64,000 bases of DNA from Pararhizobium sp. (GTDB lineage: Bacteria; Pseudomonadota; Alphaproteobacteria; Rhizobiales; Rhizobiaceae): contig CP051237.1 of the NCBI GenBank assembly GCA_017794825.1, positions 5,567,342 through 5,631,341 on the forward strand, written 5' to 3'. Each line of letters begins with the position of its first letter. The first letter of the stretch is position 1. Made by a program: the position numbers and the translations under genes. Below, one piece after another: positions 37,834 through 39,742 of the stretch. The notes beneath the pieces were generated by a model that saw nothing but the letters and a program-made list of their open reading frames with translations, made no database searches and was not told where the DNA came from.

Positions 37834-38367
37834 CTACATGGCCTCATGCATGTAGGCGTAGCCTTCCGAAAATCCCGGCAAGGCGACGTCGATCGTGATT
37901 TCACGATTGTTGATCAGAACATAGCGGATCTTCGCCGTGGCGTTCTCAGCCAGCATCTTTTTCCAGATGTCCTGAAACTTGAACTCGGCAAAACACCCGA
38001 TATTGCTGCATACGGTGTAATCGATCGCCAGGGGATCGGCGCCGGGAAACTGCAGAACGACCCGCTCCGACAGCTTTACGCCAAGAGGCGTCCTCAGTTG
38101 AACCTTCTCTCCACCGGTTGGATCCGGAACGATCGACAGTGCAAACGCAAAAAAGCGCTGGTTTGTGGTCTTGTTCAGTCCTTCGAAATTCTGGGTCAGC
38201 GTACAGCGGTTGGCGCCCTCATTGGGCTTGACGCAGGCGACGATCCATCTTTCGAAATTTTTCTGCGCGCTTTCTTGCGCATGTGTGGTTTCTACGATCC
38301 CGCAAATCATGAGCGCTGCAGCGATGAGGAACAGCACTGTACGAATCTGCGATTTCAACGGGTGCAT
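37834..38367 (-). CDS. Invasion-associated locus B (IalB) family protein
   Basis: 177 residues. A signal peptide ends around THAQES (about residue 30). The mature protein has the IalB pattern FERWIVACV...RCTLTQNFEGLNKTTNQRF with Cys pairs, RTPLGVKLSERVVLQ, YTVCSNIGCFAEF and a strand-rich C-terminus. Known from Bartonella as an erythrocyte-invasion factor, but common in non-pathogenic members of the order as a periplasmic protein of unknown role. Stand-alone reverse gene beside tRNA-Leu. A 9-bp hairpin at 37764-37789 without a T-run lies between them. Confidence 0.9.
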   Translation of the reverse strand: MHPLKSQIRTVLFLIAAALMICGIVETTHAQESAQKNFERWIVACVKPNEGANRCTLTQNFEGLNKTTNQRFFAFALSIVPDPTGGEKVQLRTPLGVKLSERVVLQFPGADPLAIDYTVCSNIGCFAEFKFQDIWKKMLAENATAKIRYVLINNREITIDVALPGFSEGYAYMHEAM

Positions 38368-38690
38368 GGTCTCTCCTCCTGCCCAAGGGCATTTTTAATA
38401 TTATGCTTCAAGAGCAAACGCGATTCTGCAACTGACATGTGGCGTCTACGCCGATTTTCGCATCGCACAATCCCGTCATGGTTTCACCTTTCCTTCAGTT
38501 GCACGTTGGAATTATACCAATCCGGCTCTATACACTTACAAAATACCCATATCCGGAAAACCCGGAACAGGCCTTCACAACAACCAATTCTCGGCGTTTC
38601 TTGCAAGGCGCCAGGGCCTGTCCGCACTCCAAATTGTCCCCGATTTGTCTAGCCATGCGATTTGTGCATGGCACCTATGCGCATATTGCG
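38368..38690. other. Gene-free interval upstream of the RNA cluster
   Basis: No gene. Its right end contains several TGCA half-sites (ATGCGATTTGTGCATGGCA at about 38655-38673) leading into the promoter of the first RNA. Short ORFs lack a ribosome binding site and coding character. Confidence 0.4.
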
Positions 38691-38719
38691 CTGCACAAAA
38701 TTGAATCTCCTTCATATAT
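38691..38719 (+). promoter_or_regulatory. Promoter of stand-alone cuckoo-like RNA
   Basis: CTGCAC at 38691-38696, 17-bp spacer, ATATAT at 38714-38719. Homologous in sequence to the promoter of the DUF1127-RNA unit at 38990. The CTGCACAAAA block is common to both. Confidence 0.6.
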
Positions 38720-38725
38720 TGAGAC

Positions 38726-38910
38726 TCAACAAGGCGGCGCCAAACAGTAACGAATACCGGCGGCCACCGAGAGTAACATAGAGTTTCACAGAGGCATAAC
38801 TCCTCCTCCCAATGCCCTGTGATGTGATCGGCAATTATCCTCCTCCCAATTGCCGATCGACCTAAATGACGCCCGCTGGACCTCCTCCCCCAGCGGGCGT
38901 TATTGATTCC
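38726..38910 (+). ncRNA. Cuckoo/CcsR-like small RNA, stand-alone, with three anti-Shine-Dalgarno loops
   Basis: Three consecutive hairpins each present CCTCCTCCC-type sequence in the loop: stem GGCAT/ATGCC (about 38793-38815), perfect 10-bp GATCGGCAAT/ATTGCCGATC (about 38826-38857), and 11-bp ACGCCCGCTGG/CCAGCGGGCGT (38869-38900), which probably ends the RNA. The pattern matches the cuckoo RNA family of Alphaproteobacteria (CcsR of Rhodobacter). Unlike the family's usual arrangement, no DUF1127 gene precedes it; a promoter with a CTGCAC -35 lies at 38691. Start predicted from that promoter. Function inferred: titration of, or pairing with, SD-like sequences under stress. Confidence 0.72.
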
Positions 38911-38989
38911 GGCGCAGCCGAGATTTTGACCCGTCCAGCGATTTAATTCGACCCTTGCAATAATGCATAACGCGCTTGCATTTATTGCA

Positions 38990-39018
38990 CTGCACAAAAC
39001 TGCAGTGAGCGCCTATAT
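38990..39018 (+). promoter_or_regulatory. Promoter of DUF1127-cuckoo RNA unit
   Basis: CTGCAC at 38990-38995, 17-bp spacer, CTATAT at 39013-39018. Upstream (38955-38990) are several TGCA half-sites, matching the arrangement before the first RNA. Confidence 0.65.
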
Positions 39019-39061
39019 TGGGTTCAAGACAAACAGCAACGCAAATCAAGAGAATGTCACG

Positions 39062-39205
39062 ATGACTTTCAAACAGTCTTTCCGCAATTGGCGCCAGTAC
39101 CGCAACACCTGCAACGAACTTTACCGCATGTCGGATCGCGAACTTGGCGATATCGGCATCAGCCGTTCAGAAATTCCGTTCGTCGCCCGTCAGGCCGTAC
39201 GCTAA
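39062..39205 (+). CDS. DUF1127 microprotein
   Basis: 47 residues: MTFKQSFRNWRQYRNTCNEL then YRMSDRELGDIGISRSEIPF and a short tail. The DUF1127 core (YRMSDRELGDIGISRSEI) is complete. In Rhodobacter the homologue CcaF1 is an RNA-binding protein co-transcribed with CcsR RNAs, the arrangement seen here: the triple hairpin RNA follows within a few bases. Longer in-frame upstream start codons (to 38963) overlap the promoter and are rejected. Confidence 0.93.
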   Translation: MTFKQSFRNWRQYRNTCNELYRMSDRELGDIGISRSEIPFVARQAVR

Positions 39206-39207
39206 AG

Positions 39208-39335
39208 AATTTGCCGGGTTAACTCCTCCTCCCATAACCCGGTAATACGATCGGCTGTTACTCCTCCTCCCAAACAGTCGATCACACCTACGACGCCCGC
39301 TGGATCTCCTCCCCCAGCGGGCGTTGTTATTTTAA
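39208..39335 (+). ncRNA. Cuckoo/CcsR-like RNA downstream of DUF1127
   Basis: Three hairpins, each with a CTCCTCC loop: CCGGGTTA/TAACCCGG (39214-39242), GATCGGCTGTT/AACAGTCGATC (about 39249-39283, one G-T), and ACGCCCGCTGG/CCAGCGGGCGT (39292-39324) followed by a T-rich tail. The last stem has the same arms as in the first RNA. It is expected to be processed from the mRNA of the 47-aa DUF1127 gene that ends 3 bp upstream, as known for CcsR. Confidence 0.75.
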
Positions 39336-39481: not shown

Positions 39482-39511
39482 CTGCACATAATATATGCAA
39501 TGGCTGCATAT
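39482..39511 (+). promoter_or_regulatory. Candidate promoter of second DUF1127 gene
   Basis: CTGCAC at 39482-39487, 18-bp spacer, GCATAT at 39506-39511. It shares CTGCACA with the two other promoters of the cluster; ATGCA/TGCAT half-sites also occur here (39494-39511). Confidence 0.5.
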
Positions 39512-39595: not shown

Positions 39596-39742
39596 ATGAA
39601 CTTCTTGCGTGACTACCAGAACTGGCGCCGCTACTGGAGAACAGTCGATCAGCTCAGCAGCCTTACGGATGCGGAACTGCGCGACATCGGCCTCGAGCGC
39701 CACGCCATCAAAGACGCAGCACGCGGCTTCCACAGACACTGA
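39596..39742 (+). CDS. Second DUF1127 microprotein
   Basis: 48 residues: MNFLRDYQNWRRYWRTVDQL, then SSLTDAELRDIGLERHAI and a short basic His-rich tail (ARGFHRH). It retains the ELRDIGLxR DUF1127 core. GGGAGAG at 39585-39591 precedes the ATG. Unlike the 39062 gene, its 3' region has no CCTCCTCC hairpin but a long stem (39770-39813). It is too short for standard ORF cutoffs. Confidence 0.93.
   Translation: MNFLRDYQNWRRYWRTVDQLSSLTDAELRDIGLERHAIKDAARGFHRH

Follow-up and report, generated by a model that had tools for sequence, protein, structure and literature searches.

Two small RNA genes of the alpha-r14 family lie close together upstream of trmFO in this Pararhizobium genome, the right one directly behind a DUF1127 gene and the left one without such a gene. 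The reading that we favour, with a probability of roughly 0.7, is that both encode trans-acting small RNAs (sRNAs), which would be separately transcribed, co-regulated by a LysR-type protein of the LsrB/VtlR kind, and would silence mRNAs at Shine-Dalgarno (SD) sequences. Family membership, covariation of the stems, promoter homology, enrichment of the regulator box and a trxB–LysR–ar15 (AbcR) locus are established here. Both the three loops and the link to DUF1127 are already known from print, so that the locus illustrates a familiar kind of RNA well and is not a new kind. The part worth following is the co-regulated, permuted trmFO locus.

Identity and fold of the two RNAs

The window, meaning the whole 64-kb stretch of DNA analysed, contains the features listed below. 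DUF1127b and trmFO, absent from an earlier first-pass annotation, complete the arrangement, which in this genus reads alpha-r14, DUF1127, alpha-r14, DUF1127, trmFO.

38652..38672, unstranded: dyad GCCATGC-N7-GCATGGC with LysR-type T-N11-A box TGCGATTTGTGCA (38656-38668), read from the sequence, at about -70 of the left unit
38691..38720, plus strand: left promoter-like sequence CTGCAC-N17-ATATAT (in the scan, TGCACA-17-TATATT), from promoter scan and homology to the right promoter
38727..38780, plus strand: putative left RNA leader without a DUF1127 ORF, from conservation in congeners, its start placed from the -10 element
38781..38905, plus strand: left alpha-r14 RNA, hairpins 38786-38822, 38825-38859 and 38865-38904, from RF02344 and fold
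38956..38968, unstranded: right-unit box TGCAATAATGCAT, TGC-N6-GCA, at about -70 of the right unit
38977..38989, unstranded: second right-unit box TGCATTTATTGCA, LysR-type TGC-N7-GCA, adjoining the -35 element
38990..39019, plus strand: right promoter-like sequence CTGCAC-N17-CTATAT, from promoter scan, with exact TTGCRCTGCACAA
39062..39205, plus strand: DUF1127a, 47 aa, Pfam PF06568 at 59.2 bits
39206..39329, plus strand: right alpha-r14 RNA, hairpins 39211-39245, 39249-39283 and 39290-39327, from RF02344 and fold
39496..39508, unstranded: LysR-type box TGCAATGGCTGCA before DUF1127b, by sequence match
39596..39742, plus strand: DUF1127b, 48 aa, Pfam PF06568 at 50.2 bits
39887..41317, plus strand: trmFO, the syntenic anchor, NCBIfam TIGR00137 at 539 bits (cut-off 428.65) and NF003739 above cut-off, with synteny

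Both units are members of the alpha-r14 family. Each covers the Rfam model RF02344 (ar14, alpha-r14) from end to end (positions 1-123 of 123), the left with 107.1 bits (E 8.4e-19) and the right with 101.5 bits (E 1.4e-17), where the gathering score is 58.8 bits. In the source genome, one contig of 6,060,643 bases, no other such match was found. In the accessible text of PMC10746234 and PMC7143759, alpha-r14 RNAs consist of three hairpins with an identical CCUCCUCCC motif in each, and the Sinorhizobium meliloti member is NfeR1. Three hairpins with CCUCCUCCC in each loop and variable stems are found in both units here: CTCCTCC starts at 38800, 38840 and 38882 on the left and at 39223, 39261 and 39306 on the right, one per hairpin loop, and the third loop of the right unit, TCTCCTCCC, is the sole departure from CCUCCUCCC among the six. 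The last stem, ACGCCCGCTGG / CCAGCGGGCGT, recurs exactly at 38869/38890 and 39293/39314. The first-pass annotation had proposed three anti-SD hairpins per unit, a shared last stem and RNAs of the cuckoo/CcsR kind; the located loops, the exact stem copies and the full-length family matches bear this out. Its remark that three such loops exceed the usual number is wrong, because published alpha-r14 RNAs, as described in the available portions of the same two papers, have three. On the plus strand of the window CTCCTCC starts 19 times, nine of them inside the two units, and the complement GGAGGAG is absent; the ten occurrences outside the RNAs are unexplained.

Folding z-scores are -9.75 for the left unit and -9.02 for the right, with -6.41 and -4.43 on the opposite strands, and for each of the four strands tested all 200 shuffles fold less well. 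Long perfect stems fold on both strands, so that the strand is not given by the fold alone; it was assigned because of the loops, the Rfam match and the neighbouring genes.

The first-pass annotation would have been refuted by stems lacking covariation in relatives, and all three hairpins have such support. Hairpins 2 and 3 were aligned in 64 of the 65 matches of at least 81 bits, drawn from 98 above gathering (one of 83.1 bits, at locus L104, is absent from the alignment). In these, 92.8% of cells are paired versus 71.7% in shuffles, 341 cells are altered on both sides versus 104, and 20 of 22 pairs have two-sided changes versus 15.9; sliding the pairing partners abolishes the signal. The MAFFT alignment left helix 1 unresolved, and hairpin 1 was tested by arm exchange instead, in the 72 of 98 above-gathering matches with exactly three CTCCTCC clusters (of the others, 23 have two, two have one and one has four). 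Own arms as against arms from a foreign genome give -17.2/-7.6 kcal/mol for hairpin 1, -16.8/-7.8 for hairpin 2 and -25.6/-14.8 for hairpin 3. That the repeats are DNA elements or plain terminators, and not RNA genes, is hardly credible. The third hairpin could terminate transcription, and the perfect stems fold on the opposite strand too, but the loop motif is strand-specific, the covariation tolerates G-U pairs, the Rfam matches are full-length and promoter-like sequences lie on the same strand. The terminator pattern of the scan called neither third hairpin.

Promoters, regulator boxes and known relatives

The left unit has its own promoter-like sequence, as the first-pass annotation had stated, and on alignment the two promoter regions are homologous: they score 57, the maximum among shuffles is 38, and none of 500 reaches the observed score. 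Their common form is CTGCAC-N17-(A/C)TATAT, with a -35 element that matches CTTGAC at 4 of 6 positions, counted by eye. TTGCRCTGCACAA occurs exactly at two sites in the genome, the left and right promoters; with up to one mismatch it has 16 sites genome-wide versus 13 for the control, which is no better. The promoter scan found two sites, not above shuffles (mean 1.2). When promoters of neighbouring units were compared genome by genome, against shuffles that preserve single-base composition only, the score was reached by 0 of 500 shuffles in G000, G002 and G025, by 1 of 500 in G001 (G001 and G002 belong to the genus of the window), but by 333, 110 and 72 of 500 in G013, G005 and G030. The region upstream of DUF1127b weakly resembles the right one (9/500) and less so the left (30/500); between its box (39496-39508) and DUF1127b the scan found no promoter-like site.

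The boxes are arranged much as at NfeR1, which, in the available text of PMC10746234 and PMC7143759, is activated by LsrB via a TGCA-N6-GCAT box at -72 to -60 and repressed by NtrC; its three motifs are redundant, with ntrB among the targets. The left unit has TGC-N7-GCA at -70, the position of the published LsrB box if its start is placed correctly, and the right unit has an N6 form at -70 plus an N7 form closer to -35. The strict printed LsrB consensus GCAT-N3-TG-N3-T is absent, by eye, from the three upstream regions of the window. Judged from sequence alone, both units carry an RpoD signature preceded by a conserved motif, and the promoters look like RpoD promoters with a LysR-type box, as at NfeR1. 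The left unit thus shares with NfeR1 an RpoD-like promoter of its own and a T-N11-A box near -70, and both units share its three CCUCCUCCC-loop hairpins and full-length RF02344 match. They differ from NfeR1 in the conserved leader of about 54 nt on the left, in the DUF1127 gene before the right unit and perhaps in the position of both before trmFO.

The stop codon of DUF1127a directly abuts the right RNA, and no DUF1127 ORF lies ahead of the left unit. The CcsR/CIN1 order, an anti-SD RNA co-oriented downstream of DUF1127, is therefore found at the right unit and not at the left; the first-pass annotation had this correctly. The parallel is with Rhodobacter sphaeroides, where a DUF1127 gene, ccaF1, is directly followed on the same strand by the anti-SD RNAs CcsR1-4, whose maturation CcaF1 aids. 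According to the parts of PMC10253847 available, the ccaF1-CcsR operon has an RpoHI/RpoHII promoter, and in alphaproteobacteria CcsR-like RNAs and short DUF1127 proteins frequently occur together (the CIN1 locus). Here one RNA follows the gene instead of four, and the promoter appears RpoD/LysR-like instead of RpoH-dependent.

The right unit might nevertheless be a CcsR-like RpoH operon of heat and oxidative stress, its RNA matured by RNase E with the aid of the DUF1127 protein, while the left unit is controlled differently. The order of elements matches ccaF1-CcsR as given in the accessible text of PMC10253847, and at the right -10 stands CCTATAT, the same as in CTTGAA-N16-CCTATAT, which the accessible text of PMC8844928 gives as the RpoH1 consensus. 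We consider this unlikely: the right promoter is, by eye, nearer to CTTGAC-N17-CTATAT (4 and 6 of 6) than to CTTGAA (3/6), and homologous left and right promoters with the same spacing speak against different control. Maturation with the aid of the DUF1127 protein may hold all the same.

The cuckoo RNA family and its CIN1 locus, reportedly a subject of Reinkensmeier and Giegerich in 2015, are said to be linked to short DUF1127 proteins. Compared through the available text of citing papers, cuckoo RNAs share adjacent hairpins, one loop motif, variable stems and the short DUF1127 association with the units described here; nothing essential differs, and the trmFO setting and regulator box may be additions.

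Co-regulation of both alpha-r14 copies, the reading preferred here, draws on upstream regions in relatives. From 125 regions, removal of identical or short ones left 109, comprising 44 of alpha-r14-linked DUF1127 genes and 65 of unlinked alpha-r14. TGC-N7-GCA lies upstream of 37 of the 44 (expected 5.5), ranking first in an unrestricted search for spaced three-base dyads, and of 29 of the 65 (expected 7.1), where it ranks sixth, with CAT-N8-TGC and GCA-N9-TGC among the higher ranks; the exact box is missing from the other 36 unlinked copies. Allowing at most three mismatches, the printed VtlR site occurs in 23/44 and 19/65 (expected 0.6 each), and the LsrB consensus GCAT-N3-TG-N3-T in 21/44 and 25/65 (expected 2.5 and 2.8). 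Among DUF1127 genes near anti-SD motifs (two or more CTCCTCC on either side, no farther than about 1.2 kb), 10/10 have the box versus 4/24 others, in 11 of 13 searched genomes; this control used 34 of 42 matches, several of them from congeners and non-independent. The six other DUF1127 genes of the source genome are without the box.

In the source genome a LysR-type gene lies between trxB and ar15/AbcR, the known LsrB/VtlR setting; its product, identified from Pfam domains and neighbours, is a candidate LsrB/VtlR orthologue. A perfect dyad, AGCTATGC-N6-GCATAGCT, lies about 70 nt before ar15/AbcR (L148, near 2640) and is probably the LsrB/VtlR site of AbcR. In the accessible text of PMC12595884 and PMC7486931, VtlR activates AbcR RNAs and DUF1127 genes or homologues. 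The LsrB/VtlR regulons of Brucella, Agrobacterium and Sinorhizobium similarly have one LysR protein activating sRNAs and DUF1127 proteins (available parts of PMC12595884, PMC7486931, PMC8844928 and PMC10746234); the RNAs beside DUF1127 genes here are alpha-r14, which may be a difference.

An old locus upstream of trmFO

RF02344 matches are found in 45 of 61 genomes, above gathering in 37. They number 135, and 125 copies in 40 genomes were examined; ten of the weakest class (31-38 bits) were left out (G021 C12:170655, G022 C76, G026 C45, G033 C2:1408100, G040, G041, G045, G048, G052 and G053 C3). A same-strand DUF1127 ORF lies upstream of 59/125 copies within 700 nt and of 42/125 within 100 nt, or, among above-gathering copies, of 46/98 and 30/98. 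A DUF1127-linked copy is present in 30 of 37 genomes, and linked and unlinked copies occur together in 21 of 37.

In 33 of the 40 genomes examined, trmFO is immediately preceded by alpha-r14 matches on its own strand, and 32 of these genomes have DUF1127 genes at the site; in G024 the site has RNA matches only, in a stretch interrupted by a contig end. All matches at the site are below gathering in five of the 33 (G003, G012, G024, G043 and G046). The orders include DUF-RNA (eight), DUF-RNA-RNA (five), RNA-DUF-RNA-DUF (three, all this genus), RNA-RNA-DUF-DUF (two) and DUF followed by four RNAs. Judged from these orders, the old locus before trmFO comes in many permutations, and the window's arrangement is one of them. 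At L092, L098 and L104 (G021, G024 and G028), four or five consecutive alpha-r14 matches precede trmFO, an array resembling CcsR1-4 of Rhodobacter; several of the matches score below gathering. A literature search, with the 2015 cuckoo study and the bulk of subscription papers outside its scope, found no paper that joins NfeR1 with DUF1127 or trmFO with DUF1127, which is weak evidence of absence.

The left and right RNAs are 76% identical. Orthologues in two congeners are 99.2% and 98.4% identical to the left RNA and 98.4% and 97.6% to the right, so that the duplication predates the split of the three genomes. The first-pass annotation had taken the left unit for an autonomous duplicate; its own promoter-like sequence agrees with this, and the comparison adds that the duplicate is not recent (76% against the right copy, 98-99% against orthologues). 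The idea that the unit was duplicated recently and its last stem copied was rejected, since the two copies are as distant as copies from other genera. G013 holds a hairpin-3 region 97% identical to that of the left unit.

The left copy might be a silent spare, with only the DUF1127-linked copy active. In S. meliloti one of six NfeR1 copies was reliably detected, as stated in the available text of PMC7143759, so that one of two here might be silent. This is decidedly unlikely: the left RNA (99.2%/98.4%), leader (98.2%/94.5%) and promoter (90.8%/88.2%) are conserved in the two congeners, as against 55-76% in three nearby spacers (a fourth, before trmFO, reaches 88%). Both promoters fall within 82-91%. 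By this measure of sequence, both RNA copies are maintained, as the preferred reading of two active sRNAs would have it.

Tentatively, the region upstream of trmFO may be an old assembly site of repeatedly duplicated and re-ordered DUF1127/alpha-r14 units, and the left unit an sRNA freed from a DUF1127 3' UTR when the reading frame was lost and promoter and box were kept. The left leader is not proven as a remnant of a DUF1127 5' UTR: in a leader-only similarity test 22 of 500 shuffles reach the score, and by eye its three forward frames hold no DUF1127-like reading frame.

Proposed working and wider meaning

What we infer for both RNAs covers their transcription, the binding of LsrB, their processing and their targets, as follows. 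(i) The left RNA would be transcribed from its own RpoD-type promoter. (ii) The right RNA would be co-transcribed with DUF1127a; as it starts directly after the stop codon, release from the mRNA would be needed, probably from the 3' UTR by cleavage near that codon, and DUF1127a might assist in this, as CcaF1 does for CcsR. (iii) An LsrB/VtlR-type LysR protein would act at the box on both promoters, and probably also at that of DUF1127b, so that the copies would be separately expressed but co-regulated. (iv) The three equivalent anti-SD loops of each RNA would base-pair at ribosome-binding sites in many mRNAs and so halt translation, a mode of action tested for NfeR1.

Targets of NfeR1 include ABC transporter mRNAs and ntrBC. 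In the source genome the gene before ntrC has NR(II)/NtrB as best family, at 188.7 bits and below the 240-bit cut-off, and begins with GGGAGGCGGCATG, which offers six contiguous pairs with the loop motif; such pairing is compatible with targeting, not specific. The neighbouring IalB-family gene (37834-38367, minus strand; Pfam PF06776, 79.7 bits) has AGGAGGAG before its start codon, in the start region near 38373; by eye this is a good complement of the loops, which makes the gene a candidate target. The target pattern GGGAGGAGG-N(2-12)-ATG gave nine exact matches versus four for a reversed control, one of the nine being the complement of the left RNA gene, and is uninformative. For autoregulation through the DUF1127 start regions, inspection by eye found short complementarity only.

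Anti-SD sRNAs and DUF1127 proteins have mostly been studied separately in rhizobia, Brucella and Agrobacterium. The comparison of loci and upstream regions suggests that in this family a single conserved locus and a single regulator box are common to both. If the tentative origin of the left unit is true, one could trace how an RNA derived from a 3' UTR came to stand alone in the manner of NfeR1, and a small protein and an anti-SD RNA would have been kept within one LysR regulon. The shared locus and box make two matters testable: the joint action of the RNA and the protein, and how a 3'-UTR RNA becomes a gene of its own.
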